A DNA stretch of 58,910 nt from Anaerolineae bacterium (GTDB lineage: Bacteria > Chloroflexota > Anaerolineae > 4572-78 > J111): NCBI GenBank assembly GCA_016931895.1, contig JAFGDY010000065.1, positions 1 to 58,910 on the forward strand, written 5' to 3'. This document shows positions 53 through 32,384 of this stretch, piece by piece (positions within the stretch are counted from its first letter, which is position 1; the number at the start of each line of letters is the position of its first letter). The position numbers were made by a program, and so were the translations under genes. The notes beneath the pieces were generated by a model that was given only the letters and a program-made list of their open reading frames with translations, was not told the origin of the DNA and searched no databases.

Positions 53-1708
53 TTGGAAGACCCTTTTTTAGCATTGAACAGCCCTGGCATGTCAGGGGGA
101 GTAGACAACTTAGGGGCAACCTATATCGCTGGGGCCGGTCTGGGCGCTTCAACTGCCGCCGGTTTTAGTTTGGTGATGCAGCAAGGGCCACAGCCCGGCC
201 AAATTTTTCCTCTGGTCGGCGGTACCCAAACCATTGGTCGCGCTCCCGACAATCAAATTCACATTGCGGATGTCACCATTTCCAAACAGCACGCCGGTCT
301 AACGGTGCAGCCGAATGGAGTTTTTATCAAAGATATGGGGTCTTCCAACGGCACTTTTGTCAACGGGCAGCAGATTACCAACGTAACACCGCTCAAATCC
401 GGGGATACGCTCCAAATAGGCACAAATGTGACTCTGGGCGTGCAAGGGCCAGGCGGGGCAATGCCGGTTCAATCCGCAGCAGGTGATCGGAGGAGCGGCG
501 GCCTGGGGATGATAGTGGCCGTGGTTATTCTGTTGGCCGCTATCGGCTTTGGGGGAGCGATCTGGTTTATGTGGCCGTTGTCCCAATTTAGCAGTAGCCA
601 GGCAGAGGCAACGATTCCACTTCCCCTTGAAACTACCCTCCCCCCTGCTCCTACGCCTACAGTCACACCTACATCTGTACCCCAGGCCACAATCACATTC
701 AACCTAGATAAAGATACGGTGCAGTTGGGGCAATGCGCCACCTTGCGCTGGAAGGTGACGCATGCCAAAGAAGTTCGTCTGGATGGCGAAAAAGTATCGG
801 CTGAAGGTAGTCATAAAGTTTGCCCTCAAGAAGACACCACCATCTATCGTCTAACTGCCCTCTCACTTGAGGGGGAAACCGAGGAACAAGCTATCACCTT
901 GAATGTGCCGCCCACCCCTTTACCACCACCGGGCGTTGAAATTGAATTTACCGCCCATCAGAGTACGGTTGAATTTGGTGACTGTACCACCTTGCACTGG
1001 CAGGTCAAAAACGCCAACGAAGTGCGTCGAGAAACCAAAAAAGTAGGGCTGACCGGTAGCGAACAAGTTTGCCCCCAGGAACCGAACAGTACTTACACTT
1101 TGTTGGTACAAACGCTTGAAGGTGAAAATATTGAGCGCGTGGTGACCATCAACGTACCCCCAACCCCTGTGCCCACAGCTCTCCCCACCAGCACGCCTAA
1201 ACCCCAAAATCCGGTAATTGATAAGTTTATGGCCGATCAGAATGCGCTGAACCAGGGCAGTTGCACCACCTTACGTTGGCAAGTGCGTAACGCCCAAACC
1301 GTGCGACTGGACGGCAATGCAGTGGCCAATCAAGGCAGTCAACAGGTGTGCCCTACGGCCTCTGCCAACACCTACAATTTGGTAGCTACCGGGGGTGGAG
1401 GCAGCGTACAATCATCTTTAACCCTGGTTATCAATACCCCCACGCCTACGCCGGTTATCGTCTATGTCCAACCAACCCCCGCGCCGCAGCCGGTATCGGT
1501 GAGCGCGTGTGTTGTGGTTGATAATGACGGCTGTTACGTTTATCACTGGAATATCCAAGGGGTGCAAACATTACATTTTAACGGGCAGGGAATAACCTCG
1601 CCGGGCCAGAGTGGTCAACATTGCACATTTTTCCCGGAGGCCGTTTTACGTATTACGCACCGCGATGGCCGCGTTGAAGAAATTAGAAACTGGTCTCCCT
1701 GCTATTAA
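53..1708 (+). CDS. FHA-domain membrane protein with cysteine-paired extracellular repeats
   Basis: Residues about 39-130 form an FHA domain (IGR at 61-63, SKQHA at 77-81, SSNGTFVNG at 97-105), a phosphothreonine-binding module expected in the cytoplasm. One membrane segment (152-173) follows, then a Pro/Thr-rich stalk and three beta-type repeats of about 73 residues (213-285, 296-368, 388-460). Each repeat has a TLRW/TLHW core and a conserved cysteine pair (C228/C257, C311/C340, C404/C433). A degenerate fourth copy (481-540) ends the protein. The repeats are probably extracellular, with disulphides. The start is uncertain: TTG at 53 or ATG at 89, neither with a clear ribosome site; an ATG at 43 lies out of frame before a T6 run. 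The gene precedes a kinase by 14 bases and probably shares its operon; its FHA domain could bind the autophosphorylated kinase. Confidence 0.8.
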   Translation: MEDPFLALNSPGMSGGVDNLGATYIAGAGLGASTAAGFSLVMQQGPQPGQIFPLVGGTQTIGRAPDNQIHIADVTISKQHAGLTVQPNGVFIKDMGSSNGTFVNGQQITNVTPLKSGDTLQIGTNVTLGVQGPGGAMPVQSAAGDRRSGGLGMIVAVVILLAAIGFGGAIWFMWPLSQFSSSQAEATIPLPLETTLPPAPTPTVTPTSVPQATITFNLDKDTVQLGQCATLRWKVTHAKEVRLDGEKVSAEGSHKVCPQEDTTIYRLTALSLEGETEEQAITLNVPPTPLPPPGVEIEFTAHQSTVEFGDCTTLHWQVKNANEVRRETKKVGLTGSEQVCPQEPNSTYTLLVQTLEGENIERVVTINVPPTPVPTALPTSTPKPQNPVIDKFMADQNALNQGSCTTLRWQVRNAQTVRLDGNAVANQGSQQVCPTASANTYNLVATGGGGSVQSSLTLVINTPTPTPVIVYVQPTPAPQPVSVSACVVVDNDGCYVYHWNIQGVQTLHFNGQGITSPGQSGQHCTFFPEAVLRITHRDGRVEEIRNWSPCY

Positions 1709-1722
1709 GAGGAGGAAAACGA

Positions 1723-4629
1723 ATGATTTTACCCGAAGGCGCCATCTTAGAAAACCGTTACCGCATAGACCAGATGTTGGCCCAGGGGGGGATGGGGGCC
1801 ATTTACCAGGGCTATGATCAGAATCTTAAAATCATGGTAGCCATCAAAGAGAACTTCTTTCAAACCCCCCAATCTCGACGCCAGTTTGAACAAGAAGCCC
1901 TGATTTTGGCCCGGTTGAATCATCCTGGTCTGCCGCGGGTGATTGATCATTTCAGCGCGGCCAATTTGCAATACCTGGTGATGGATTTTGTGGCCGGACA
2001 AGATTTGTGGCAAATGGTCAAACAGCAGGGACACCCATTCCCCGAAGCGCAAGCTGTCCGCTATATCAGCCAGGTGTGTGAAGCAGTGGCCTATTTGCAC
2101 CGGCAAAACCCGCCCGTAATTCACCGCGACATCAAACCCCAAAATATCAAAGTGACGCCTAAAGATCAGGCCATACTGGTTGATTTTGGCATTGCCAAAA
2201 TTGTTGAGGCGGACAGCCGCACTCGTACCGGAGCACGAGGCATTACACCGGGATTTTCGCCGCCGGAACAGTACACCGGTCAAGGCACCACTCACGCTTC
2301 CGATATATACGCCCTCGGCGCAACGCTCTACGCCCTGCTTACCGGGAAAAAACCGCCAGATAGCATTGGTCTGATGACCGGCAAAGTTCGGTTTGAATTG
2401 CCTAATACAATCAACCCCAATCTAAGCCGGCAAGTATCAGAAGCGATCAGGCATGCTATGCAAATTGAGCAGGCCCAAAGGCCGCAGTCGGTGGTTGCCT
2501 GGCAACAGGAGCTGGAATCGCGTTTACCCCCTTCCAATGAACCTATTGCGATTGAGAACATGCCTGTGGCTATGTGGTTGATTGGCCCAAACGGGCAAAA
2601 TTACCAACTCCAACCGGGCAGCGTCATTTTGGGGCGGAGCAAAGATAACGATATTCCGCTTAGTGACCCGGCGGCCTCGCGCCGGCATGCTATGTTAGAG
2701 TTTGATGGACAACATTGCTTTGTTTACGATGAAGGCAGCGCCAACGGCACATTTATTAACGATCGGCGCGTCAACGATGAAGGCCATCCTTTCCATCCGG
2801 GTGATAACCTACGTATCGGCCAGACTACGTTTACCCTCAGCACCACCCCTACTGGCCCCGGAGAGCCGGTGGCTGGTCCGCCTCTAATTGTTGATGACCG
2901 GGCTGAAACGGCCCACATTGGGGTTAAAGTTGTGGATGCTGATCCTACTACTTCAGCCGCCGGTCGTCAGCCCGTAGCCAAACTCACTAACCAAGCCCAA
3001 GCCACAATGGCTCCACCACCGGAGGCTACCTTCGCTCAAACCGGGCCAACGCGCTCCAAACAAGGTATATCGTTGCTGGTCATCGGCCTTATTGTGGTGG
3101 GGGTGGTGGTTATCGGTGGTGTTGTTTCCTTTTTGATAACAAGCCGTATGACGGAATCAAAGCAGAAAAATGTGACGATTGCAGAAGAGACCCTCACCAA
3201 AATTGAAGCTACGCCTACCTCTCAACCATCCCCCGCCAGTAATATTGAGGCCACCACCACGGCCACCTGGCTGGATGAGGATGATGACCGTGACGGTTTG
3301 CTCAACCGCGAAGAAGTGGAATTTGGCACACAGCCCAACGCCAAAGATAGCGACCAAGATGGCCTAAATGATGCCGATGAAATCAGGATTCACCAGACCA
3401 ACCCCCTTAACCCCGATACCGATGGCGACAGCCTGAAAGATGGGATTGAAGTAAACCAGGGCTTAAATCCTATGGACGGGGATACGGACGGCGACGGCCT
3501 CTTTGATGCCAGCGACCCGAACCCGGCGCAAGCGCCTACGGCCACTGTTTTGCCCACCAACACCCCCTCTCCTACGTTACTCCCCTCTGCCACCTTGCCT
3601 CCTGCCAATTTGCCCACCGCCACCCCCCAACCGGTAACACAAACCTCTGGCGCCGCACCGCCCGGCATTTTTCAAGATTTTGAGAGTCAAAACACATGGG
3701 AACGCGGCGACCAGCCCTACGGCGAATTTTATCGTTCCTCAACTCAAACTCACAGCGGTAATTTTGCCGGGCAATTGGATTACAACTTTCCCTCCTCAAC
3801 AGATAACGACTTTGTAGTCTTTTCGCAACGTTGGACCTTATCCGGCAATCCCAATGCCATCTCGGCCTGGGTGTATGGCGATGGGGCTGGTCATTTTCTT
3901 AATGCCTGGATTAAAGATGCCGCCGGTCAAATTTGGGGGATGAGTTTTGGCCAGGTAAAACACACCGGCTGGCAAGAGATGATTGCCTACCTGGATTCCA
4001 ATCAGCCCTGGCCCAGCGGTCACATCAGCGGGCCGGATAACGGCGTAATTGATTACCCCATCAGCTTTCAAGCCCTGGTTCTGGATGACGGCGTTGACAC
4101 CTTTAGCGGTAGCGGTACGCTTTACATAGACAACCTGGCCAGCGTGTCCGATGCCACCGCCCCCACGCCCACTCCAGCCCCGGTCGTATCCGGCGGCGCT
4201 CAAGGCTCCGGCCCGGCAATAGTTTCCAACAATGATTATACCCTAAAAATAGGCAACAAAGAGTTCAACTATGTTGAACCCTGGGGATCGCCCGTTAGCG
4301 GCGATGTTTGCCACGCCCTCAAGTATAACGAATGGGATGACACCCAAGGAATCTACAGCCGCCTCCAACTGGAACTCATTTTAATTAACAATACCCAGCA
4401 AGCAGTAGCCGATGACTGGGGTGGCATTGAATTCATAACCGATTCCGGATATCAAGATTTTTTTTGCCGTTATGAATATGCCGGTTCCGGCCCGCCGCCG
4501 GGCGAGTCTCGTTCTATAACCCTTTTTGGGCTGATGCCCATTAACGACCGGGTGCAATATATTCGCCTTAACAATCTACCTGGCCAAGCGATTGAGCTTT
4601 GTATTACCCACAACGGAAAAGGCTGTTAA
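1723..4629 (+). CDS. Receptor-type Ser/Thr protein kinase with FHA, TSP3 repeats and exported C-terminal domains
   Basis: A 968-residue receptor-like kinase; ATG at 1723 follows a strong AGAGGAGG site. The order is: Hanks-type kinase (12-265; K42, H134-R135-D136, D154-F155-G156, SPPE at 179-182), FHA domain (283-372, with SANGTF), one membrane segment (449-472), calcium-type thrombospondin-3 repeats (518-600, several DxDxDG loops), a Pro/Thr stalk (601-645), a beta-sandwich region resembling carbohydrate-binding modules (about 648-805), and a distinct C-terminal domain with four cysteines. The glycine loop lacks its first glycine (AQGGMG), as in its paralogue downstream, but the catalytic residues are intact. 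Kinase and FHA should be cytoplasmic and everything after 472 outside. That the outer part senses sugar or calcium is inference. Confidence 0.9.
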   Translation: MILPEGAILENRYRIDQMLAQGGMGAIYQGYDQNLKIMVAIKENFFQTPQSRRQFEQEALILARLNHPGLPRVIDHFSAANLQYLVMDFVAGQDLWQMVKQQGHPFPEAQAVRYISQVCEAVAYLHRQNPPVIHRDIKPQNIKVTPKDQAILVDFGIAKIVEADSRTRTGARGITPGFSPPEQYTGQGTTHASDIYALGATLYALLTGKKPPDSIGLMTGKVRFELPNTINPNLSRQVSEAIRHAMQIEQAQRPQSVVAWQQELESRLPPSNEPIAIENMPVAMWLIGPNGQNYQLQPGSVILGRSKDNDIPLSDPAASRRHAMLEFDGQHCFVYDEGSANGTFINDRRVNDEGHPFHPGDNLRIGQTTFTLSTTPTGPGEPVAGPPLIVDDRAETAHIGVKVVDADPTTSAAGRQPVAKLTNQAQATMAPPPEATFAQTGPTRSKQGISLLVIGLIVVGVVVIGGVVSFLITSRMTESKQKNVTIAEETLTKIEATPTSQPSPASNIEATTTATWLDEDDDRDGLLNREEVEFGTQPNAKDSDQDGLNDADEIRIHQTNPLNPDTDGDSLKDGIEVNQGLNPMDGDTDGDGLFDASDPNPAQAPTATVLPTNTPSPTLLPSATLPPANLPTATPQPVTQTSGAAPPGIFQDFESQNTWERGDQPYGEFYRSSTQTHSGNFAGQLDYNFPSSTDNDFVVFSQRWTLSGNPNAISAWVYGDGAGHFLNAWIKDAAGQIWGMSFGQVKHTGWQEMIAYLDSNQPWPSGHISGPDNGVIDYPISFQALVLDDGVDTFSGSGTLYIDNLASVSDATAPTPTPAPVVSGGAQGSGPAIVSNNDYTLKIGNKEFNYVEPWGSPVSGDVCHALKYNEWDDTQGIYSRLQLELILINNTQQAVADDWGGIEFITDSGYQDFFCRYEYAGSGPPPGESRSITLFGLMPINDRVQYIRLNNLPGQAIELCITHNGKGC

Positions 4630-4667
4630 GGCCAGTCAATTTAGAGAAAATCTATCGAGGTCACAAA

Positions 4668-7600
4668 ATGACATTATCCACAGGCGCAACTCTAATCAAT
4701 CGGTATCGTATCGATCGGCTGCTTTCTCAAGGAGGGATGGGGGCGGTTTACCTGGGTTTTGATACCAAACTCAAAATACCAATAGCCATCAAAGAAAACT
4801 TCTTTCAAACTCCCCAGGCTATTCGTCAATTTGAGCAAGAGGCCCTCATCCTGGCCCGCTTGCATCACCCTGGCTTGCCGCGGGTGATACACCATTTTAG
4901 CGAAAATAACCAACAATACCTGGTGATGGATTACATTGAAGGGCAAGACCTTTGGCAGATGATCAAAAAGCAAGGTCGCCCTCTCTCCGAAACGCAGGCG
5001 GTGGGGTATATTCTGCAAGTTTGCCAGGCGGTCAGCTACCTGCATCACCAGAGTCCACCCATTATCCACCGGGATGTCAAACCCCAAAATATTAAAGTAA
5101 CGCCTGATGGGCAAGCCATTTTGGTTGATTTTGGGATTGCCAAAATTGCCACAGGTGATGCCCGCACCCAAACCGGAGCGCGGGTGGCCACACAGGGATT
5201 CTCGCCACCGGAGCAATTTACAGAATTGGGCACCACCCCTGTTTCCGATATTTATTCTTTGGGGGCTACTCTGTATGCCGCACTCACCGGCCAGGAACCG
5301 CCGGATAGCATTAGCCTGTTGGTTAACCGGTCCCAATTTCTTTCCTTGGAAAAGCTCAATGTTAATTTTAGCGCCCCGGTTTCTAGGGCCATTATGCACG
5401 CAATGGAGCCAGAACCGGAAAAACGCCCCTCCTCGGTGTTGGTCTGGCAGCAGGAGTTAGAAGCCATTGGCGAAGCCCCCACCACTCTGGCTAAGGCAGA
5501 CGATGTATCAATTGAGCCAGGTTGGCTGGTTGGCCCCGGCGGGCAAAGTTATCCCCTCAAAACGGGTCGTCTGATTATGGGCCGCGCCAAAAACTGTGAC
5601 ATCCCGGTCAACGACCCGGCAGCCTCACGCCAGCATGCCTCTCTGGAGTTCAACGGTCAACATTGCCTGGTTTACGACAACAATAGCGCCAACGGCACCT
5701 ACATCAATAACCAGCGCGTTGACAGCCGGGGACACCCTTTTGAACCGGGCGACCGGTTACGTATTGGACAAACCACCTTTACCTTGAATACCACCGAACC
5801 AACACCGCCTCCCCCCGGCCAAATTATTGCCCAACCGCTGATAGACGAACAAGCTGAAACCGACTATGTGGCTACCGTACCCGCGCCTGCCCCGGAATCG
5901 AATCAACTGGCCCAAACTCAACTATCTCAATCCCCCCCGTCGGTACTCCCCGCGGCTAATGTTGGTAATTTGGTGGGCAAAACCTTGGGCAAATATCGTA
6001 TTGTGGCCCGGTTAGGCAGCGGAGGTATGGCCGAAGTTTACAAAGCCTACCAACCTGGTCTGGATCGTTATGTGGCCGTTAAAGTGATGCACCAGCATCT
6101 CAGTACGGATAAAGACTTTATTGGCCGTTTTCAACGCGAAGCCCTGGCTACGGGCAAATTAACCCACCCAAACATTGTGCAAGCCCTTGATTTTGATCAA
6201 GATTCAAACATCTACTTTATGGTGATGCAATTTGTTGACGGCCCCACCCTTAAAGACGAAATCCGGGCGCGTTGGGGGCAAGGACGTGGTTTTTCTATGC
6301 CGGAAATTGCCCGTATCTATCTGGCTCTGGGAGATGCCATTGATTACGCCCACAGCAATGGGATGATCCATCGTGATATAAAACCGGCCAATATAATGAT
6401 CAACTCAGAGGGTCAGGTATTACTGACCGATTTTGGCATTGCCCGGCTGCTGGGCGGCGCTCAATACACAATGACCGGTGCAATGACCGGTACGTCCGCT
6501 TATATGTCGCCCGAACAGGGTGAGGGTATGCACGTTGATGAACGCAGCGACATTTATACAATGGGTATTATTTTGTATGAAATGGCGGTAGGTAAAGTTC
6601 CTTTTAAGGGAGAAACGCACATTGCCACAATTATGCAGCACATCAAAGGACCCTTGCCACTACCCGGTCAGGTTAATCCAAACATCACTCCGGCTGTAGA
6701 GCAGGTCATCATTAAAGCGTTGCATAAAAATCCTGATGATCGCTACCAGACATCCGGCAATTTAGCCCTCGCCCTGCGTGATGCCGTTGGTTTGCCCCCG
6801 GATGACTCACTCAGAAAAAACCCTCTACAGCTAACCGCGCCACTTCCCAAAATTGATGATGAACTCGACCCGACAACAGGTACATTCACTCCGGTTTCGG
6901 GGCAAGGTGCGGCCTCAACCGACGCAACCCGGGTCAGGATGGACGGAGAAGCAACAACAACTGACACCTCACCGCGCAAAAGCGGCTTAACCCTGGCGCT
7001 GGTAGGGGGGATGACGATAGTTATTTTGGCTGCGCTGGGTGGTATCATCGCTTTTTTGAGCCTCAGTGGTTCAGACTCAAATACAGATTCCCCCACCGTA
7101 GCAGTCAATCTAACTGCTACGGCCGGCGTTGAAACCACCCAAACTGCCGAGGCTGTGGCTATAGCTCAATTGGATGAAACCAATGCTACGGCTACCGCTT
7201 CCTGGTTGATTGATGATGAGGACCGGGATGGGTTGACCAATGCTGAAGAATTAGAATTGAACACCCTGCCCGATAAACGAGATACGGATCAAGATAATAT
7301 TGACGATCTGGAAGAGATCAACATTTACGATACCAATCCCCTCAAATCCGACACAGATGGCGATGGCTTAAAAGACGGGTTTGAAGTTAGCCAGGGGTTA
7401 GACCCAAACAATCAAGATACAGATGGCGATAGTTTACCTGACGCCCAAGACCCCGACCCGGCCCATACCCCCACGCCCACGCCTACCGAAACTCCCGTAC
7501 CCACCCCCACGCCCCTCCCTACCGATACGCCCACAGCGCCGCCATCTCCTACTGGCGCGCCCTCTCCAACATCAACACCCACAACACCTCCGCCTACCCC

Positions 7601-7991
7601 TACGCCGCTAAACGAAACGGAGCGTCTGGTAGCTGAACTTATTTCCCAGACACCTCCCTTTGGGGGAGACAAAACCGGCCTCATTGTGGTCAATTGTCAT
7701 CCTACTGATTCCCTGGACTGGCATGTGGAAGCGCCCAGAAACGAACACCGGTTGGTAGGTAAGGTTCCCGCTTATCACGACGGCCATTGTGGAATCAGCC
7801 ATGTGGAAGGATTTTACGTTACCCAAAACTATGATTTTGGCTTTAATGCTCATTGGATGGATTCAACCCGGCATTATCTCTTTTCAAATTTTCCACCCTC
7901 CCAGATAGGGGTTATTTACTTTGATGAAAAAGGTGAGGCCGAACTGCGAAAGCTTGACGCGCATTTTGAATTTTGCTCATGGTGCGGCTAA
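4668..7991 (+). CDS. Receptor-type Ser/Thr protein kinase with two kinase domains flanking an FHA domain
   Basis: ATG at 4668 is chosen because of the GAGG site at 4657-4660 and because residue 1 then aligns with the start of the preceding paralogue; an upstream in-frame start at 4599 would overlap that gene. The 1107 residues comprise kinase 1 (12-265; K42, HRD 134-136, DFG 154-156), FHA (285-373), a linker, kinase 2 (443-705; canonical GSGGMAEVY loop, K472, HRD 568-570, DFG 588-590, SPE 614-616), a membrane segment (773-797), TSP3 repeats (848-930), a Pro/Thr stalk (933-980) and a C-terminal domain with a CSWCG ending. Both kinase domains keep catalytic residues. Kinase 1 is close to that of the upstream gene, whereas kinase 2 is of ordinary bacterial PknB type, so the architecture probably arose by insertion of a second kinase. 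Confidence 0.9.
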   Translation: MTLSTGATLINRYRIDRLLSQGGMGAVYLGFDTKLKIPIAIKENFFQTPQAIRQFEQEALILARLHHPGLPRVIHHFSENNQQYLVMDYIEGQDLWQMIKKQGRPLSETQAVGYILQVCQAVSYLHHQSPPIIHRDVKPQNIKVTPDGQAILVDFGIAKIATGDARTQTGARVATQGFSPPEQFTELGTTPVSDIYSLGATLYAALTGQEPPDSISLLVNRSQFLSLEKLNVNFSAPVSRAIMHAMEPEPEKRPSSVLVWQQELEAIGEAPTTLAKADDVSIEPGWLVGPGGQSYPLKTGRLIMGRAKNCDIPVNDPAASRQHASLEFNGQHCLVYDNNSANGTYINNQRVDSRGHPFEPGDRLRIGQTTFTLNTTEPTPPPPGQIIAQPLIDEQAETDYVATVPAPAPESNQLAQTQLSQSPPSVLPAANVGNLVGKTLGKYRIVARLGSGGMAEVYKAYQPGLDRYVAVKVMHQHLSTDKDFIGRFQREALATGKLTHPNIVQALDFDQDSNIYFMVMQFVDGPTLKDEIRARWGQGRGFSMPEIARIYLALGDAIDYAHSNGMIHRDIKPANIMINSEGQVLLTDFGIARLLGGAQYTMTGAMTGTSAYMSPEQGEGMHVDERSDIYTMGIILYEMAVGKVPFKGETHIATIMQHIKGPLPLPGQVNPNITPAVEQVIIKALHKNPDDRYQTSGNLALALRDAVGLPPDDSLRKNPLQLTAPLPKIDDELDPTTGTFTPVSGQGAASTDATRVRMDGEATTTDTSPRKSGLTLALVGGMTIVILAALGGIIAFLSLSGSDSNTDSPTVAVNLTATAGVETTQTAEAVAIAQLDETNATATASWLIDDEDRDGLTNAEELELNTLPDKRDTDQDNIDDLEEINIYDTNPLKSDTDGDGLKDGFEVSQGLDPNNQDTDGDSLPDAQDPDPAHTPTPTPTETPVPTPTPLPTDTPTAPPSPTGAPSPTSTPTTPPPTPTPLNETERLVAELISQTPPFGGDKTGLIVVNCHPTDSLDWHVEAPRNEHRLVGKVPAYHDGHCGISHVEGFYVTQNYDFGFNAHWMDSTRHYLFSNFPPSQIGVIYFDEKGEAELRKLDAHFEFCSWCG

Positions 7992-8125: not shown

Positions 8126-8153
8126 TTGCCCGCCGCCACATTTGTGGTATAAT
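8126..8153 (+). promoter_or_regulatory. Sigma-70-type promoter of the LexA-box gene
   Basis: TTGCCC (8126-8131) and a perfect TATAAT (8148-8153) are separated by 16 bases and point at the gene starting at 8198. The expected transcription start falls inside the adjoining CGAAC-N4-GTTCG palindrome. Confidence 0.7.
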
Positions 8154-8197: not shown

Positions 8198-8914
8198 ATG
8201 CTCATTTACCCCACCGACCGCATCCTGGTCGCTATAATGAACAACAAAACAGATTGGCAGCAGGTGCTGGACGAAGGCTGGTACCGCATTCCGGTGAAAA
8301 ACGCGCCGGAAGGAACGCCCCGTTTTGACTGGCTGGCGTTTTATTTCACCAAAACCTTTGCTGCCGATAAATGGGCCATTCACTACTACGCCCGGATCGA
8401 GGGCCACGAACTGATGACGCGCCAAGACCTCATCCCTGCCCAACCCAATCACAAACGGGCCAACAACTGGTATTACAAACTCCAGCTTGGCCCGCTGCAA
8501 CATAAAATACCGCCAATTGTGTCAAGCAACTGGCGGCGGATTACGTTTATTGCCACCACCGGCGACCGCTTTGAGGCCGCCGAGGAGATCAACGATTTAT
8601 TTGAAAACGAGTCACCTGCCGGATGGTTGTATGTGACCTTGAAAGAAATGGGCATCCACGCCGAGCGGAATTTCCCCCTCAAAGAGGGAGGCGTGAATTA
8701 TGTGGCCGACCTGGCCGTGCCCGCCGGTAACAAACAATGGCTGCCCGTTATCTTCACTTCACTCAAAGACATAACCCCCGATGCGGATGTGCTTTATCTC
8801 CCCCCCGATAACCCCCTTGAAGAAAATCTCAAAATCGTCCGGCAAGCGCGGCTGGCGCTAAAAAAGCCCTCCGGCCAAACTCAGTCGGGTAGTTCAAAAT
8901 ACACCGCGGGATAA
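8198..8914 (+). CDS. Hypothetical protein, probably DNA-damage inducible
   Basis: 238 residues, no signal peptide or membrane segment, so probably cytoplasmic. The N-terminal part (DRILVAIMNN, then EGWYRIPVK) looks like a conserved module I associate with unnamed proteins of Chloroflexota and cyanobacteria, which supports the start at 8198 over ATG 8239. The C-terminal half (about 150-200; GIHAERNF, YVADLAVP, WLPVIF) has a beta-strand rhythm faintly like restriction-endonuclease folds, but I cannot place a full PD-(D/E)XK motif. The upstream LexA-type box suggests a role in DNA-damage responses. The 3' end overlaps the convergent frameshifted gene by 86 bases. Function unknown. Confidence 0.75.
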   Translation: MLIYPTDRILVAIMNNKTDWQQVLDEGWYRIPVKNAPEGTPRFDWLAFYFTKTFAADKWAIHYYARIEGHELMTRQDLIPAQPNHKRANNWYYKLQLGPLQHKIPPIVSSNWRRITFIATTGDRFEAAEEINDLFENESPAGWLYVTLKEMGIHAERNFPLKEGGVNYVADLAVPAGNKQWLPVIFTSLKDITPDADVLYLPPDNPLEENLKIVRQARLALKKPSGQTQSGSSKYTAG

Positions 8915-9313
8915 CCTCCGCCAACTCGTCCGACTGCCCCTCAACGTTGGCCACCTGCACCGTGATCATCAGCATACATTTTCCCTCAAAGGGCGGGGCG
9001 TTATTTTCATTTTGCGCCTTAACCAAGGCCCAGGCATCTTTGTTTACAGGCACCACCGAAGTTCGCAGGCCATTCCAGGTGAGATTTTGGGATAGCGGCA
9101 AGCCTCCAGAGACATTGCCCCACCACAAGGCCGCCTCGGTAGCTTTAACGAAACTCCCGTTGCCTGCGCCGATACTGCCCCTGCTGTCGCCGTCAAATCC
9201 GGCGGGCCAAATCTATAGGCCATGATAGGGCCTAAGGAAAACATCAAACCGGTACACACCAGGGCTGCCCCAATGATGAGGGCAAAGGCTATTTTTTGTT
9301 TGTGGTTAGACAT
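8829..9313 (-). pseudogene. Membrane-anchored hypothetical protein, frameshifted; last gene of the glp operon
   Basis: ATG at 9313 has a strong GGAGGG site and overlaps the end of glpC by 8 bases, so it is translationally coupled. The first frame gives a cytoplasmic start (MSNHKQK), a membrane helix (about residues 8-28) and a short outer stretch. It then loses coherence near a CCCC run at 9178-9181. Adding one base there joins it to a second open frame (ending at 8829) that reads GNGSFVKATEAALWWG and onward to a coherent 100-residue domain. One missing base therefore explains the break: sequencing error or a recent mutation. The family is not recognised. The 3' end overlaps the convergent gene at 8198-8914. 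Confidence 0.55.
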
Positions 9314-10592
9314 CCCACCCTCCTTTCCCATAAGCCAGGCCATAGGCTTGCGCCAGCAGTTCCACCGGATGGATCATTTTAACCCCGGTCGCGTGGGCAA
9401 TCTGCCAGCGGCACGTCTCGCTATCGCAAATCGCCACGGCCGAACCTGACTGTTTGATCTGGTCAAACAAGGGCCGGCCTACATCCATGGCAATCTGGTA
9501 TTTCTCCTTTTTGTAGCCATACGTCCCGGCAATGCCGCAGCAATCAGCCTGCACGTGTTTGATAATGACCCCGGGAATCAACTCCATCAGGTCAATGGCG
9601 GGCAAACCCATATTGTGCGCCCGAAGCTGGCAGGGAAGGTGATAAGGCAGGCTGACCGGCAACGGCTGAAAATCGGTTTTCAGTTGACCGGCCTCGGCCA
9701 GTTCCAGCAGAAATTCGGAAATGTCGTAGGTTTGGTGGGCCACCAGCCGGGCGTCTTCGGTATCAATGTCCAAGATATGGCGGTAGTCTGATTTGAGGCT
9801 AAGGGTGCAACTGGTAGAGGCGCCCACAATCTTATACCCTTGCCGGGCGTACTTCACCAGCGATTTGATATTTTTACAGGCATTTTTCCGGGCTGCGTCA
9901 AACTCGGCATTGGAGAGCATGGGCAGGCCGCAGCAAACCTGTTTGGGCACAATCACCTCAAAGCCGTTGTGTTCCAGCACGGCCACGGCGGCTTTACCCA
10001 CATGCGGCTCGTAATAGTTGGCGCTGCAACCGTGAAAAAATACCACTTTTTTATCAGACACCAGTCGCCGGCCCGATTTTTGATGAACGCCCCGGTACCA
10101 CCCCCGAAACGTTTCCCAAGAAAAAAGCGGCATGGGGGCATGCCGGTGAATGCCCATCACTTGCTCGGTCAGCCAGCGAATGAAGGGATTGGTAAACATG
10201 AAGTTGGCCAGGGGGGCAAACGGACTGCCTAACATCCCTAACAATTCCGAACGCCCCAGCAGCCGGTTGCGCCAGGGAATGGATTTGCGCCGATACAGTT
10301 TGGCTCGGGCCTTGGCGTTCATCTCCATCACCTTCACCCCGTGCGGGCAAACCATAGTGCAAACGCCGCAGCCGCTACAATAATCCAAACTCTCATCCAC
10401 CGAAATTTCGTGCGGGCTGCGAAATCGCTGCGCCTGCGGCCCCACAAACTTAGGGCCGGGAAAAAGATCGGTCACGCGATGCACCGGGCAGTGAGAGGTG
10501 CAAATATTGCACTTGATACATAAATCGGCGGTATATTGCGCCTGCTCCCAGATAGAGAGGTTGAAATCATCCTGGATATTTTCAATGCTCAT
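9306..10592 (-). CDS. glpC: Anaerobic glycerol-3-phosphate dehydrogenase subunit C
   Basis: 428 residues. Two ferredoxin-type [4Fe-4S] motifs lie at the N-terminus (C25-x2-C28-x2-C31-x3-C35 and C72-x2-C75-x2-C78-x3-C82), followed by two CCG domains (VCCGLPML and DCCGIAGTYG). This is the standard GlpC build: the iron-sulphur subunit that passes electrons from the GlpAB dehydrogenase to the quinone pool at the membrane. Its ATG overlaps the glpB stop as ATGA, indicating coupled translation. Gene order glpA-glpB-glpC matches the classical operon. Confidence 0.93.
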   Translation of the reverse strand: MSIENIQDDFNLSIWEQAQYTADLCIKCNICTSHCPVHRVTDLFPGPKFVGPQAQRFRSPHEISVDESLDYCSGCGVCTMVCPHGVKVMEMNAKARAKLYRRKSIPWRNRLLGRSELLGMLGSPFAPLANFMFTNPFIRWLTEQVMGIHRHAPMPLFSWETFRGWYRGVHQKSGRRLVSDKKVVFFHGCSANYYEPHVGKAAVAVLEHNGFEVIVPKQVCCGLPMLSNAEFDAARKNACKNIKSLVKYARQGYKIVGASTSCTLSLKSDYRHILDIDTEDARLVAHQTYDISEFLLELAEAGQLKTDFQPLPVSLPYHLPCQLRAHNMGLPAIDLMELIPGVIIKHVQADCCGIAGTYGYKKEKYQIAMDVGRPLFDQIKQSGSAVAICDSETCRWQIAHATGVKMIHPVELLAQAYGLAYGKGGWDV

Positions 10593-11875
10593 AAAGAAGG
10601 CTCACTGTAACTCAAAATTTGTTTCACCACGGCGGCTGCCGTAGCCAGGGCCACCCCGCCGCCGGTGCGGCCGGCTATCCAATTTGCGCCGGCCAGCAAC
10701 GCGCCCGCCACAAATAAATTCTCGGCCAAAGGCGCACCGTCTTCAGCAACCGGATTGAGCCGTCGGTTGGCCCGCACCCCGTAATCAAAAACCGGCTGGC
10801 CCTGCGGCGACAGGAACTGCGGCGCAAACCATTGGTGGCGGTCCGGGTTGGCCCGCACCGGCAGGCCAAAAATCGGCTCCCACATCCGGCCTTGATCGTC
10901 GGTTTGCAGGCCGCCGCCAAAGATGCCGCCCGTGGCCAACACATAGTTTTCGGCCGCAAGTGGTTTCAAACGGCTGGCCGTTTCCAGCCGGATTTGCCTG
11001 ACCCGCCCGTTTTCAATTATTCCATCAACCACTTTACCGCCAATGAGCAACCGCCCCCCGGCCTCCAGGAAAACTTTTTGCAAAGCTTCAAATAAACGGC
11101 GGCCCGGCGCCGATGGCGGCAAGGTGCTGATTTCAAAAACAGGTTTGCCCAGGCGCTGCTGCAAATCGGCCAGCACATCGGCGTGTTGGGCTAACCCCAA
11201 AACCGCCGGAAAACCAATCCGGCCATAACCCCGGCCTTTATTTTTGACAGCCCTGACCACCTGCTGCCGGAACTGGGGCTGCTCAAAAGCGGCGGCCAAC
11301 TCAAGGGGGGTGACGTTCATTTTGCCCGCCACGGGAGCGGGCGCGTCAAGGGTTAGCGCCGCCGCCTGCACTCCCAATTTTTGCTCGTTCAGGTTTTGAG
11401 TCATCAACGCCGGATAAAAATCGCGCAACTCTTTGAAGCCCACAATGAGCATCCGGCCCCTGACATTCAGGTCGCCATTGGCCATCGAGGCCGGAGCCAG
11501 GCAGGTGGGATGCACGGCCCCGACCGCGCCGGGCAACAGCCAATTCCGGTCAACAACGCCCCGGTAATCCAGCTTCCCCCGGACCAACTCCAAAAACGCA
11601 GTTAGCCCGGCCCGAATATTATCCGGGCCGGCCAGATGGTAAGGGTGTTCCGGCTTTTCGGCCAAAAAGTCGCTCAATTTAGCCAAAGGGTTATCCACCG
11701 GCGCCGGCGAATCCGCCGGTTGAAAGCCTAACACGTCCATTGCGCCGGAAGATAACAACAACGCTCCCATGCCCTGGGCCACCAAAAGCACTTTTTTATT
11801 GGCCCGGGCCAATTGGCAGGCCGCGGTCAGGCCGGTCAGGCCCGCGCCAATCACAATTGTTTCGTACTTGCTCAT
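10589..11875 (-). CDS. glpB: Anaerobic glycerol-3-phosphate dehydrogenase subunit B
   Basis: Flavoprotein of the GlpB type. The N-terminus reads MSKYETIVIGAGLTGLTAA, a dinucleotide-binding Rossmann fold (GAGLTG). The ATG at 11875 is preferred over a TTG at 11899 because of the AGAAAGG site about 10 bases upstream. The C-terminus ends in a GlpB-like second FAD contact region (AGRTGGGVALATA). The subunit works with GlpA and GlpC to oxidise glycerol-3-phosphate to dihydroxyacetone phosphate in anaerobic or microaerobic respiration. It lies 62 bases after glpA and overlaps glpC by 4. Confidence 0.9.
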   Translation of the reverse strand: MSKYETIVIGAGLTGLTAACQLARANKKVLLVAQGMGALLLSSGAMDVLGFQPADSPAPVDNPLAKLSDFLAEKPEHPYHLAGPDNIRAGLTAFLELVRGKLDYRGVVDRNWLLPGAVGAVHPTCLAPASMANGDLNVRGRMLIVGFKELRDFYPALMTQNLNEQKLGVQAAALTLDAPAPVAGKMNVTPLELAAAFEQPQFRQQVVRAVKNKGRGYGRIGFPAVLGLAQHADVLADLQQRLGKPVFEISTLPPSAPGRRLFEALQKVFLEAGGRLLIGGKVVDGIIENGRVRQIRLETASRLKPLAAENYVLATGGIFGGGLQTDDQGRMWEPIFGLPVRANPDRHQWFAPQFLSPQGQPVFDYGVRANRRLNPVAEDGAPLAENLFVAGALLAGANWIAGRTGGGVALATAAAVVKQILSYSEPSL

Positions 11876-26976: not shown

Positions 26977-29715
26977 TTATAGCGCTCGTTCTACCAACCA
27001 GCGCCGCACCAGGGGCACCTCAACGCTATAGCCATCTCTAGTGTGGGTCAAAATCCGGCGGCGGACAAGCCGGGCCAGGGCCGGGTGAGCGGGCAGGGTC
27101 AGCGGCTCGCCAGCGTGGGCGACCTGGCGCAGCAGCGGTTGGCCGTCTGGGCCGGCCATTTCGTGCCAGATGTTGCGGAAGTAAGGTTCGCCCTGGTCCA
27201 ACGCCCGCAGCAGCGCCGTTTCAAACAGAGATAGATCAACGTGAAGGGTAGCGCGGGCATTACTTTCTTCCACCACCGCCGAGCAGACCAGTTGTAGCAG
27301 ATAGGGGTGGCAATGGGTTTGGCGCATCATTTCGCTGACCACGTTATCGGCGTAGGCCAATTTGAAATCAGCCTGCAAATCAGGCCGGCGGATAAGTTCT
27401 TCGGCCTCATCGGGATAGAGGTAGCCAATGGACAGAGGTTTGACATTGATAAAATATGACGACCAGGCCGGGCCTAATTCATCCAGGGTTTGCACCCCGG
27501 CAAAAAGCAGGGCCAGCCGGGTTTGGTGCTGGATCAGGTAGCGCAACTCGTCAAAAACCTGCTCGTTTAGCCGCCCGCCTTCAACGGCCTCGCCTAACTT
27601 TTCAAATTCGTCAAAGGTCAGCAGCAGGTTAAAATCTTGCAAAGCGGGCAGGGCCGCATCTTCCAGCCATTCGGCAAAAGTTTCAAAAGGGGAGTCATCA
27701 AAGGCGGCCCGCTGGGGCAGGCCGACCATCAGCCGGTAAGGTCGGGCATCCCGGCTGATGGCGCGGGCGATACTGTAAAGAAAGGCCGCCGTATTTTGGG
27801 TGGCGGTGGGGCGTTGCAGGTCAAGAAAAACCGGCAGCGTATTGCCGGGCAGCAGGGCCGGGAGTTGCAACAAAAAGGAGGTTTTGCCCATGCGCCGGGG
27901 GCCATGCAAAACCAGGGTAGGGCGGTGACGCTCCAGCAGGGCATTGATCACGGCCTCGCGTAATTCGCGACGGCCTTTAAAAAGTTCCTGGCGCGACAAT
28001 TGCAGGGGCGTGCCGGGTTGATAGGGATTTTCAATGGTGGCGGCCCCGGCATTGGCCGAAACAGCTTCTAACTCGTTGAGCAACACCTGCTGCCACCGGT
28101 CAATCACCGGCTGCCAGCGCTGACCGGCCTGCGGCCCCAGTGAGGGCAACCGGCGGCGCAATGTGTCCAGGCCGTCCAGGGCCTCGCGATACCCCAAACG
28201 ACGACTGTAAAGATTGTCTGCCCCCAGCGTGGCCCGCACGCCGCCGGCAATGGCCAGCAAACGGGGGACGATTTCATGAGCGCCTTGCGCCAGGGCCAGC
28301 ATCACTTCATCGGCCAACCAGTCTAACTCGTGGGGGGCATCTGCAATCATGGCCGGCGTGGCGCAGTTGGTGAGTGTTTCTACGGCGTAAGTCAAGCGGG
28401 ACTGGGTGGCGGCCCAATCCTGCCGAAAAGAGCGGGCAATGAATTTGGCCTCTTGCAACCCCGCCTGCCGGTTGGCCCGCAAAGCCAGCAGTAAAAGCTG
28501 GTCTAACATGGGCAGGGGGTAAAAAATGAGATCATCCCAATAAATGGGCGTGCGGCGCAATTTGGCTAAAGCCTGGCCCGGACTACGCAAAGCCTGGCGA
28601 TACGCCCACCAACTCAAAAACGCTTCCACCGGGTAAATGAGCAAGCGCACGTAACCATAAAACCCAATGAGCAGGGCAATGACAACCAGCAGCAGGCTAT
28701 TCGCACCTAATGGTTCACTCAGCGAAGCGGAAAACAGCCAGGCCAAACCACCCATCGCCAAGATTGCCGACAGGCCATTGCCCACCCGCATAGACATTAC
28801 TCCGCCCGCGGCGGCCAGTACGGCCCAAAAAACGATGAGGGTGACGGTATTGATTACCGTCGTCACCCCCACGGTCACCCCTCCGGCCACGCCGCCCAGC
28901 AAACCCAGTAGTAGGCTGTCAAAAATAACCCACTTGAGCGAACCGGGGCTGAGACGGCGCTCTTCAATCAGCATTTCCAGGCCAAAGGCCAAACTCAGGG
29001 CCAGGCCGCCAAGCAGACCGATGGCAGCGCCAATGGTCACTTTACTCTCAAGGCTAAGGCTGGTACTGCCGGTGAGACCAACAATCAGGGTGAGGACGAC
29101 GAGCGCGACCACGATAACCACGGTAAAAATAACGCCCACCACCGCCCGCCCCCAATAGTTGATGGTCCACAAGTCCATGGTGCGCTGCCGGAGATGATCA
29201 AACAAAGAGCTGACCATTCCTACCGCAATGCCGCTGGTGATCACAAAAGCCAGGCTAAAAACAACCCCACCCAGGGCCGCCACCAGCGCTACACCCATGG
29301 TCAGGCCCAGTAAAATCCCGCCCACTACACTGAGCACCACGCCAAAGGTGGCATCGCCTACCATGCTGCCGGCCAGGCCCAGCGTTAAACCGGCAGACAT
29401 ACCTAACGCCAGCCCAAAGGCCATGTCTACCCAGGTAGGGCCGGCCGGTAAATTGGGAATGGCCCTGATGACAATGAGCAAAGCACTCCCCCCCACGCCC
29501 GCCAAAAACCACAGGGAGATTTGCAGCCCCAAAAAACGACGCGCTTGAGCATTGCGGACAGCCAGCCAGAGTTGTCGGGTGAAGCCGGCGTGGTAAGCCA
29601 GGCCAGGTTGAAGCGTTTGCACATACCTCTCCACTTTGGCCGGTTGGAAGAGACTCCAACGCACCAATTGCAGCATATCCTGGAAAAAACGTTTGAGGGG
29701 AGTCAGGTCAATCAT
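26977..29715 (-). CDS. Polytopic membrane protein with C-terminal STAND-type ATPase domain
   Basis: 912 residues. About residues 60-400 are a dense block of some ten membrane helices rich in Gly/Leu/Val; a helical cytoplasmic linker follows (400-580), then a P-loop ATPase with Walker A GPRRMGKTS (605-613, K611), Walker B LLLTFDEFE (about 690) and a winged-helix-like C-terminus. ATG 29715 is preferred because it overlaps the preceding kinase stop (AATGATTGA), giving tight coupling; an earlier GTG-type start would extend further into that gene. The ATPase resembles the one fused to the neighbouring kinase (shared RRMGK core and an NPF/NPY-type lead-in). A membrane effector or channel gated by the ATPase module is possible, but that is inference. 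Confidence 0.82.
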   Translation of the reverse strand: MIDLTPLKRFFQDMLQLVRWSLFQPAKVERYVQTLQPGLAYHAGFTRQLWLAVRNAQARRFLGLQISLWFLAGVGGSALLIVIRAIPNLPAGPTWVDMAFGLALGMSAGLTLGLAGSMVGDATFGVVLSVVGGILLGLTMGVALVAALGGVVFSLAFVITSGIAVGMVSSLFDHLRQRTMDLWTINYWGRAVVGVIFTVVIVVALVVLTLIVGLTGSTSLSLESKVTIGAAIGLLGGLALSLAFGLEMLIEERRLSPGSLKWVIFDSLLLGLLGGVAGGVTVGVTTVINTVTLIVFWAVLAAAGGVMSMRVGNGLSAILAMGGLAWLFSASLSEPLGANSLLLVVIALLIGFYGYVRLLIYPVEAFLSWWAYRQALRSPGQALAKLRRTPIYWDDLIFYPLPMLDQLLLLALRANRQAGLQEAKFIARSFRQDWAATQSRLTYAVETLTNCATPAMIADAPHELDWLADEVMLALAQGAHEIVPRLLAIAGGVRATLGADNLYSRRLGYREALDGLDTLRRRLPSLGPQAGQRWQPVIDRWQQVLLNELEAVSANAGAATIENPYQPGTPLQLSRQELFKGRRELREAVINALLERHRPTLVLHGPRRMGKTSFLLQLPALLPGNTLPVFLDLQRPTATQNTAAFLYSIARAISRDARPYRLMVGLPQRAAFDDSPFETFAEWLEDAALPALQDFNLLLTFDEFEKLGEAVEGGRLNEQVFDELRYLIQHQTRLALLFAGVQTLDELGPAWSSYFINVKPLSIGYLYPDEAEELIRRPDLQADFKLAYADNVVSEMMRQTHCHPYLLQLVCSAVVEESNARATLHVDLSLFETALLRALDQGEPYFRNIWHEMAGPDGQPLLRQVAHAGEPLTLPAHPALARLVRRRILTHTRDGYSVEVPLVRRWLVERAL

Positions 29716-31594
29716 TTTCAACCAAATACCCACCCCCAATCATTTCGGCAAACAACTCGCTGAAGGGCTGCCCCTGGCGCACCACCCCCCGGCGTTCCAG
29801 GGCTGCCAGCCGCATCGGGTCCAGATTGGACGCCCCTGACGTGGCTGTTTGCTGCAAAATGGCTTGCTCGTCCGGGGTTAATTTGCGCCAGAGGTGCTGA
29901 AAATGAGGTTGGCATTGCAGCCACAACTCCTGACGCAGTTGGGCATAATCAACCCGGTCTTTGGCTTGGGCTTCCCAAAGATGGCTGGCAACCATTTGGG
30001 TAAAAAAAGGATGCCCCCCGGCCATTCGTTCAATAAACTCCAGGTCTTCTGCGCTGGCCGTCATATTCTCCGTGATTAACACCTGCCAGGTTTCCGGAGC
30101 CAACAAACCCAGCCAATGTTGGGCAAAGATGTTGTAAAAGGGAGAGGTCAGGCCGCCCGTAGCGCACAAGTCGGCCAGGGGCTGCGCCGACGCCGTAATC
30201 ATAGCCATCTGGCCCATCGAACCGCAGGCCCGCCAATCTTCCAGCACATCGTTGAATTCGTCGGCGCGCTGGGTCAGGTTTTCTACTTCATCCAGGCACA
30301 GCAACAAACGGATGCCCTCCGCCTGCAACTCCTCCAGGGCAAAGTCAAACGCCATCAGGTCGCCATCCTCGCTGGCGGGCCAGGGTTCGCGCCACACCTG
30401 GGTTAGTTCGCGGCGGAGCACGCGCATCAGGCCGGCCCAGGTATGGCCGTAGGCTTTCATTAAATCCAAATAAATAATGATGAATTTGAGACCGGCCGGC
30501 AGGAGGTGGCCGGCATACGTTTTGAAATAGTTCAAGAGCGATGATTTGCCCATCCGCCGCTCAGCCACAATGGAAATGGATTGCGCCGTACGGCCCCCCA
30601 CGCGATTAACCATGGCCTTCAGTTCCCCCTGGCGCCCATAAAACAGATTAGCAGACACCGCGCCGCCGTAGAAAAAGGGATTCTGAATCCGGGCCGGGCC
30701 GGCAGATTTGGCCAACGTAGCTTTGGCCAACCGGGGCGTTTGCACCGAGGCAATGTAGGTTTTGGTGGCCGGTTGGCTGCTCAGGCGGGCCAGGGCTTCG
30801 GCCAGAGCGGCCCCGGTTTGAAAACGTGCGGAGGTCTCTTTGGCCAGGGCTTGCAGGATTATTTTTTCCAGGGCGGGAGACACCTGGGCCAAGGTGGATG
30901 GCGACGGCGGCGTTTGGTAAACGTGAGCGTGCAAAATTTGCGGCGTATTTCCCTGAAAGGGCGGCTGCCCGGCAACCATGTGGTAAAGCACCACGCCCAG
31001 GCTGTACAGATCGGCTCGCCCGTCAATTCTTTCCGCCCCCGCAGCCTGTTCGGGCGACATATAGAGGGGCGTGCCCACCGTGTGCCCGGCCTGGGTCAAG
31101 GCCGGGGCGTCCAGAGCCAAGGCCACGCCAAAATCGGTCAACAGGGCCTGGTTGTCGCCGGTCAATAGAATATTTGACGGCTTGACATCCCGGTGGATCA
31201 CGCCCTGCTGATGGGCATAGTGCAGGGCGTCGGCCATTTGCCAGGCAATGTCGGCGGCGGTGGTCTCGTCTAAACGCTCCACCTGGGCCAGCCGGTCGGC
31301 CAGGGATTGACCTTCCACCAGGGGCATGGCCAGGTAAGCATAGCCGCCGGCCCGGCCCACATCCAACACCCGCACAATGGCCGGGTGATTGAGCCGGGCG
31401 GCAGTGCGGGCTTCGCGCTCAAAACGGGCCAGCATTTCTTTATTCGTTTGGGGCGATGGCATCAGCACTTTGAGGGCGACCACTTCATTTTGAAGATTAC
31501 GGGCGCGATAGACAGTGGCAATACCCCCGCTGCCAAGCATATCTTCAATTTGGTAGGGGCCAAGTTTTTGGCCTGATAGAACTGCCGTGCTCAC
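29708..31594 (-). CDS. Ser/Thr protein kinase fused to a STAND-type ATPase
   Basis: 628 residues from GTG 31594 (GGAG site in CGGAGAAATAACA; the longer frame would run into the preceding gene). Kinase domain 14-270: GSGGIATVY loop, K42, H134-R135-D136, D154-F155-G156, YMSPE at 178-182. After a linker, an ATPase (about 305-610) has P-loop AERRMGKSS (344-352, K350) and Walker B LLLCLDEVE (430-438). No membrane segment, so it is cytoplasmic. The gene is sandwiched between a FabL-like reductase (19 bases) and the membrane ATPase (8-base overlap). The combination suggests a signalling pair in which the kinase-ATPase interacts with or phosphorylates the membrane ATPase. Confidence 0.87.
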   Translation of the reverse strand: MSTAVLSGQKLGPYQIEDMLGSGGIATVYRARNLQNEVVALKVLMPSPQTNKEMLARFEREARTAARLNHPAIVRVLDVGRAGGYAYLAMPLVEGQSLADRLAQVERLDETTAADIAWQMADALHYAHQQGVIHRDVKPSNILLTGDNQALLTDFGVALALDAPALTQAGHTVGTPLYMSPEQAAGAERIDGRADLYSLGVVLYHMVAGQPPFQGNTPQILHAHVYQTPPSPSTLAQVSPALEKIILQALAKETSARFQTGAALAEALARLSSQPATKTYIASVQTPRLAKATLAKSAGPARIQNPFFYGGAVSANLFYGRQGELKAMVNRVGGRTAQSISIVAERRMGKSSLLNYFKTYAGHLLPAGLKFIIIYLDLMKAYGHTWAGLMRVLRRELTQVWREPWPASEDGDLMAFDFALEELQAEGIRLLLCLDEVENLTQRADEFNDVLEDWRACGSMGQMAMITASAQPLADLCATGGLTSPFYNIFAQHWLGLLAPETWQVLITENMTASAEDLEFIERMAGGHPFFTQMVASHLWEAQAKDRVDYAQLRQELWLQCQPHFQHLWRKLTPDEQAILQQTATSGASNLDPMRLAALERRGVVRQGQPFSELFAEMIGGGYLVEND

Positions 31595-31613
31595 TGTTAT
31601 TTCTCCGCGTTTC

Positions 31614-32384
31614 TCAATGCAATAACAATCCATATCCCCCATCCACCGTAATCGTCTGGCCAACAATCATTCCGGCGGCATCGGAGCAGAGGAAAGCGAC
31701 AACCTGGGCAATTTCCTCCGGCGTTACCAGGCGGCGGGTGGGGGAATGGCCGGCGGCATAACTAAACACTTCTTGCAGGTCTACCGGGAAAGCGGCCACA
31801 GCCCCGGTTTCAACCAAACCCGGCGATACTGCATTGACGACAATGCCCTTGGGGGCCAGGTCAACGGCCAGGTAGCGGGTCAAAGCATCTACCACGGCTT
31901 TGGATAGGCCAATGGCGCCGTAATGGGGCAATACGCGCACCCCGCCGGGACTGGTGATATTGATAATGCGGCCCCAACCGGCCTTTTCCATGTGCGGCAC
32001 CAAACGTCGCGCCAGACGCAAGATGGAACGGGCGTTAACGTCCATGGTCCAATCCCAATGTTTGTCGTTAACTTCCAAAATGTCGCGGGGGGTGCCGCTG
32101 GCGGCGTTGCCCACAAAAATATCGCACCCGCCAAAGGCGGCCTCGCTCTCAGTAACCAGAAAATCAATCTGGTCGGCTACGGCCAGGTTGGCTTTAACGG
32201 CAATGGCTCGCCGCGCCATGGCCCTAATGGCCGCCGCCACTTCCTCGGCGGCGCTCCTTTTGCGCAAGTAGTGAACCACAATATCCGCGCCGCGTCCGGC
32301 CAATTCCAGAGCAATGGCCCGGCCAATGCCGCGCGAAGAGCCGGTGACCAGGGCTACTTTGCCGGTCAAAAAATTTTCCGTCAA
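31614..32384 (-). CDS. Short-chain reductase, FabL-like (enoyl-ACP reductase III type)
   Basis: 256 residues from TTG 32384, chosen for its GGAG site 7 bases upstream and because earlier starts overlap the SH3 gene. NADPH site TGSSRGIG (14-21), S145 in NITSPGG, and Y155-x6-K162 (YGAIGLSK). The six-residue Tyr-Lys spacing is that of enoyl-ACP reductases of the FabL type, not the YxxxK of ordinary FabG-like enzymes, and ALTRYLAVDLAPK with VVNAVSPG follow as in FabL. It would reduce the enoyl-ACP double bond in fatty acid synthesis. Alternative: another SDR with the same spacing. Its place in a signalling/envelope operon is unusual. Confidence 0.8.
   Translation of the reverse strand: MTENFLTGKVALVTGSSRGIGRAIALELAGRGADIVVHYLRKRSAAEEVAAAIRAMARRAIAVKANLAVADQIDFLVTESEAAFGGCDIFVGNAASGTPRDILEVNDKHWDWTMDVNARSILRLARRLVPHMEKAGWGRIINITSPGGVRVLPHYGAIGLSKAVVDALTRYLAVDLAPKGIVVNAVSPGLVETGAVAAFPVDLQEVFSYAAGHSPTRRLVTPEEIAQVVAFLCSDAAGMIVGQTITVDGGYGLLLH

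Follow-up and report, generated by a model that had tools for sequence, protein, structure and literature searches.

Three consecutive open reading frames on the forward strand occupy the left end of contig C65 in a draft genome of 320 contigs (G000); positions are given in the window, by which we mean the whole stretch of 58,910 nucleotides that was analysed (Table 1). The first-pass annotation described three successive genes in which a cytoplasmic FHA domain, with or without a kinase, is joined through a single membrane helix (TM) to outer domains, and most of this plan was borne out. Pfam recovered the FHA domain in all three products (E-values of 3.4e-21 in P1, 7e-18 in P2 and 2e-17 in P3), each protein contains one strong hydrophobic helix, and the TSP3 calcium loops were matched by Pfam in both kinase proteins, P2 and P3. 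Likewise, no PASTA family was found among the Pfam matches of the trio, as had been claimed. The kinase was present in P2 and P3 as described, but P3 contains two kinases, the second of which had been missed. P3 likely starts at ATG 4668 rather than at TTG 4599, and P2 and P3 thus do not overlap; with the likely starts, the gaps are about 15 bases between P1 and P2 and about 39 bases between P2 and P3. The genome encodes 47 FHA and 53 kinase domains, and since both are so common their mere presence is unremarkable. A 238-aa open reading frame without a Pfam or NCBIfam match follows the trio at 8198-8914 (+), and a promoter-like site at 8126-8153 suggests that it is a separate unit. The window also contains a further K2-type kinase gene (652 aa) at 29711-31666 (-), and about seven kinases and about 11 FHA domains are clustered on another contig of the same genome (C289, 36 kb; L044, L045).

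Table 1. Features of the three-gene locus and of related gene clusters.
Feature	Location	Strand	Basis or remark
P1-P3 open reading frames as first called	53-1708, 1723-4629, 4599-7991	+	consecutive
Repeat end, probably mobile-element end; contig break	1-87	.	exact copies at the ends of C63 and C110
P1: FHA-TM-three Ig-like repeats-C-terminal Cys domain	89-1708	+	Pfam, TM prediction, Ig-like model
P1 ATYIAG, variant of linker Thr motif, Asp at -5	116-133	+	resembles inter-FHA linker of G004 homologue
P1 FHA	197-436	+	Pfam FHA
P1 membrane helix	512-568 (residues 154-172)	+	hydrophobic helix
P1 three Ig-like repeats	689-1438	+	Ig-like model
P1 C-terminal Cys domain	1472-1705	+	
P2: K1 kinase-FHA-TM-TSP3 stalk-CBM/FlaA-like jelly roll-CT2	1723-4629	+	domain matches, homologues
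P2 kinase K1	1759-2532	+	VAIK, HRDIKPQN, DFG present
P2 FHA	2593-2838	+	residues R, S, R, H, S, N, G
P2 linker ETAHIG, candidate phosphothreonine site	2905-2922	+	aligned to ETAYVP/ETTYAP/ETMLTP of homologues
P2 membrane helix	3067-3123 (residues 449-467)	+	hydrophobic helix
P2 TSP3 calcium-loop stalk	3280-3492	+	related to stalks of K2-family kinases
P2 jelly-roll domain (FLA), FlaA/CBM11-like	3658-4152 (residues 646-810)	+	sequence and model matches
P2 C-terminal domain CT2	4210-4626	+	also present in kinase-less FHA receptors
P3: K1 kinase-FHA-K2 kinase-TM-TSP3-stalk-CT3	4668-7991	+	domain matches; open from TTG 4599
P3 kinase K1	4695-5477	+	IAIK, HRDVKPQN, DFG present
P3 FHA	5541-5786	+	residues R, S, R, H, S, N, G
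P3 linker ETDYVA, candidate phosphothreonine site	5856-5873	+	position as in homologues
P3 kinase K2, PknB-like	5982-6773 (residues 462-725)	+	VAVK, HRDIKPAN, DFG present
P3 K2 Thr-rich activation loop	6468-6503	+	
P3 membrane helix	6993-7049 (residues 799-817)	+	hydrophobic helix
P3 TSP3 stalk	7215-7367	+	Pfam TSP3
P3 outer domain CT3, nearly orphan	7608-7988	+	weak partial matches
A, B, C in row	G004:C361		
A-B and convergent propeller ORF cut by contig end	G001:C9		
C-A	own C230		
A-B (cut)	G016:C265		
A and two further receptors	own C150		

The flanks of C63, C110 and the window part company at base 88. Because the preceding bases are repeated exactly at the ends of these two other contigs, host sequence begins at about position 88 and the likely start of P1 is the ATG at 89; the reading frame itself is open from TTG 53, and P1 is without an obvious ribosome-binding site. 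The N-terminal residues of P1, SGGVDNLGATYIAGAG, are similar to the linker SGSVADLGPTYIPQQG connecting a pair of FHA domains in the homologue from G004, which suggests that a mobile element may have cut the P1 gene. Judging from this similarity and from the contig ends, P1 may be truncated at its 5' end, a possible remnant of a longer gene with two FHA domains. We also considered joining contig C230 (C-A in Table 1) to the left end of the window as a five-gene locus, but did not adopt this arrangement, since the two sequences do not overlap and this end of the window is a repeat.

The residues of the FHA binding site (R, S, K or R, H, S, N and G) were kept in the alignment of P1, P2 and P3. 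The first-pass annotation had named a lack of the Arg, Ser, His and Asn residues, together with single occurrence of the genes in relatives, as grounds for giving up its proposal; these residues are intact in all three proteins. The catalytic Lys, HRD and DFG are also intact in both K1 domains and in K2, all of which were matched by Pfam Pkinase. Such FHA residues can be lost, as illustrated by two relatives with a K1-FHA kinase, L072 (G006) and L073 (G010), in which they are gone. The kinase of L072 (2527-10203) is part of a 2559-aa open reading frame and that of L073 lies at 9139-10722.

Outside the membrane, the cysteine-paired repeats that had been noted in P1 were found to be Ig-like by predicted structure, in a bead model with a mean pLDDT of 75.5 in which the arrangement is uncertain. 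The carbohydrate-module-like fold ascribed to P2 was recovered as well, the best structural matches being FlaA1 (Z 15.1) and CBM11 (Z 12.6-12.8). The 323-residue model that includes this domain has a mean pLDDT of 80 over the whole model, and the CBM11 match extends over about 145 residues, in agreement with a jelly-roll fold; the domain matches FlaA by sequence too (E about 1e-7). The fold is no proof of sugar binding, because it is common to non-lectins such as FlaA and the meprin MAM domain. For CT3 of P3, only weak partial matches were obtained in 150 genomes. The outer halves plausibly sense or bind something extracellular, for which a polysaccharide is a plausible candidate.

The second, PknB-like kinase in P3 sits between the FHA domain and the membrane helix, and P3 is the sole dual-kinase open reading frame among the kinase domains of its genome. 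No other was found in 12 family genomes or among the two scored candidates per genome in 396 class genomes, and a search of the available literature for Chloroflexota FHA kinases or for tandem kinase domains gave nothing useful. Matches to P3 in the 12 family genomes covered either K1-FHA (residues ~16-488) or K2-TM-TSP3 (~445-1006), never both. In the kinase tree, the second kinase of P3 clusters with the K2-TM-TSP3 kinases encoded on G005:C807 (97/84); K1 falls in a clade of K1-FHA kinases (98/87), a family separate from K2. By sequence, K1-FHA and K2-TM-TSP3 are thus separate protein families in the relatives. The solitary occurrence of the fusion in a draft assembly of many contigs could be taken to mean that two genes were fused by an assembly artefact. 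We consider this very improbable, since the reading frame is open across the junction between K1-FHA and K2, the joint falls within a linker, and the neighbouring P2 is built alike, with K1-FHA placed before a K2-family stalk. We regard the dual-kinase P3 as a locally unique receptor.

Sequence comparison indicates that P2, too, has a K2-family outer half (TM, TSP3 and jelly roll). Its residues 430-816 match a kinase of G005:C807 at 57%, the jelly rolls of P2 and this kinase (L087) share 70% identity, and the stalk is 60% identical to that of the next kinase along the same contig. Tandem pairs of K2-TM-TSP3 kinases, one member of which has a jelly roll, are found on G005:C807 and on G002:C384. 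A simple tandem duplication giving P2 and P3 is insufficient as an explanation, because K1 of P2 groups with G002.C201 in the tree despite the similar stalks. In the simplest reading of these patterns, a tandem K2-TM-TSP3 pair would have gained K1-FHA modules, after which P3 kept K2 and P2 lost it, with the order of events presumed.

By its relatives, which are metagenome-assembled genomes of Anaerolineae and Ardenticatenaceae, the genome belongs to an uncultured bacterium of the Chloroflexota. None of the 80 relatives that were searched had the exact trio of one FHA-only receptor and two FHA kinases. The suggestion that the trio is conserved as a unit was consequently dropped. Gene order and module combinations vary among the relatives; related clusters of modules do occur in four genomes (G000, G001, G004 and G016). 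Recurring modules in these clusters, listed in Table 1, are FHA-TM-CBM-like, FHA-TM-Ig and K1-FHA-TM-propeller, with A denoting FHA-TM-MID-FLA-CT2, B FHA-TM-Ig and C K1-FHA-TM-propeller. In G019 (L078, 4116-5921), an FHA-TM-Ig x3-CT2 protein unites outer modules, Ig and CT2, that belong to two neighbouring receptors elsewhere. Outer modules have thus been swapped between kinase-bearing and kinase-less FHA receptors.

These data bear on the question of whether the three receptors signal to each other at all. They could be independent paralogs of a large receptor-kinase expansion, brought together by tandem duplication and module shuffling. The large numbers of FHA and kinase domains in the genome agree with such an origin, as do the differing orders and combinations in the relatives and the lone K1-FHA kinases of G005 and G009. 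We nevertheless hold it to be rather unlikely, since kinase-less FHA receptors repeatedly adjoin each other and K1-FHA kinases in several genomes, and since a single FHA protein of G019 contains both the Ig and the CT2 modules as a fusion. Our preferred interpretation, held with moderate confidence, is a locally rewired, FHA-coupled receptor-kinase cluster that brings known parts into an unusual combination; phosphorylation, the ligands of the FHA and outer domains, and the order of any cascade are what we infer from the sequences.

A possible ligand for the FHA domains was suggested by reading the cytoplasmic linkers, from which we defined a motif with Asp or Glu at most three residues before a Thr that is followed by [MYVI][VILM]; ETMVPG and EPTMMG are examples of the strict form. 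The cytoplasmic linkers of FHA membrane proteins contained 28 such motifs in the first set against 2.5 expected. In a second set of proteins, for which the motif was fixed beforehand, there were 21 against 1.5 expected, an enrichment of about 14-fold, although these sites comprise 16 distinct 7-mers owing to orthologues, and some genomes belong to both sets, so that the independent events are fewer than the counts. The outer stalks contained one motif against 4.5 expected, replacement of Thr by Ser, Ala, Pro, Gly or Gln in the motif reduced the count to 0-1, and 319 unrelated proteins showed no enrichment (125 against 114). Kinases without an FHA domain also carry the motif (9 against 1.7), and it may thus be a signature of kinase substrates instead of an FHA ligand. 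The strict motif is absent from P1, P2 and P3, which have only the variants ATYIAG, ETAHIG and ETDYVA, respectively; those of P2 and P3 occupy the position of ETAYVP, ETTYAP or ETMLTP in the homologues. For the wider family, the motif provides an indirect but clear reason to expect coupling between FHA domains and phosphothreonine.

The variant threonines lie on the N-terminal side of the FHA domain in P1 and about 20-30 residues after it in P2 and P3. Each FHA domain might accordingly bind a phosphothreonine of the linker in its own chain and so regulate itself, without any relay, much like GarA/OdhI; in GarA the ETTS site is N-terminal to the FHA domain of the same protein (PMC12321487). This seems improbable to us, because several FHA membrane proteins without the motif are found beside a small motif-bearing neighbor (for example L201, L204, L210 and L223), an arrangement that suits binding in trans. 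More broadly, a long FHA-TM-Ig protein adjoins a small FHA-TM protein of about 196 aa, in either order, in many genera (L049 at 2839-5458 on contig C268 of the same genome; L184, L197, L200-L204, L206, L210 and L223). The Thr motif is mostly near the N-terminus of the small member (e.g. EPTMMG) and mostly missing from the long one. Based on these sequence patterns, the pair is a good candidate for a reader and its ligand. As for the trio itself, the proposed three-component relay, in which FHA domains read the phosphothreonines of neighbors, is consistent with the intact residues, the recurring clusters and the linker motif, but coupling in cis, between identical receptors or with other FHA proteins of the genome would fit equally well.

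The cytoplasmic Hanks kinase, disordered juxtamembrane linker, single membrane helix and outer sensor resemble those of the PASTA-type receptor kinases PknB, StkP and PrkC. PASTA kinases are indeed the best-scoring family for K2 of P3. P3 exceeds the NCBIfam cut-off for this family, its best stretch being residues 464-852, and the match covers K2 to TM only. The trio differs from them in having TSP3 stalks that bear jelly-roll or orphan outer domains in place of PASTA domains, an FHA domain within the kinase chain in P2 and P3, and two kinases in P3. Phosphorylation of a juxtamembrane Thr is known in StkP (PMC12077195), and juxtamembrane phosphosites of PknB have been described in connection with FhaA (cited in PMC12077195). 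For PknQ and MupFHA, the genes are near each other and the conserved Arg and Ser are needed (PMC4238996). In both mycobacterial pairs an FHA protein binds the phosphorylated kinase, whereas in the trio the kinases carry FHA domains themselves, each of the three proteins is a receptor that has outer domains, and the model presumes binding. GarA and OdhI share an acidic-Thr site N-terminal to FHA, but they are soluble metabolic regulators of actinobacteria and the motif is only loosely similar. Finally, the jelly roll of P2 has its fold in common with flagellar sheath proteins of the FlaA type and CBM11-type modules, but is here attached to a receptor kinase.

We hypothesize that the cytoplasmic halves of these co-directional single-pass receptors write phosphothreonine through K1 and K2 and read it through FHA. 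Clustering of the receptors by a ligand would allow the flexible cytoplasmic linkers to be phosphorylated on threonine by K1 and K2, and the FHA domain of the same or a neighboring receptor could then bind the linker phosphothreonine, gathering kinase-bearing and kinase-less receptors into one signaling patch. Such a patch would parallel PknB with FhaA and PknQ with MupFHA in the mycobacteria. P3 would have arisen when a K1-FHA module was joined ahead of a K2-TM-TSP3 receptor kinase, potentially enabling a two-step kinase cascade within a single chain, and P2 would follow the same plan minus K2. More tentatively, and with somewhat less than even confidence, we propose that the Chloroflexota use a phosphothreonine wiring code, in which Hanks kinases write the linker Thr motif, the FHA domains of clustered receptors read it, and sensors, readers and writers are freely recombined, with P3 as a two-kinase cascade in one receptor.

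If FHA domains do couple receptors through a common motif, this would represent a bacterial receptor network with interchangeable sensors, kinases and readers, and the Thr motif opens the idea of coupling to testing with short peptides. The dual-kinase receptor would be an unusual instance of a possible kinase cascade inside one bacterial chain.
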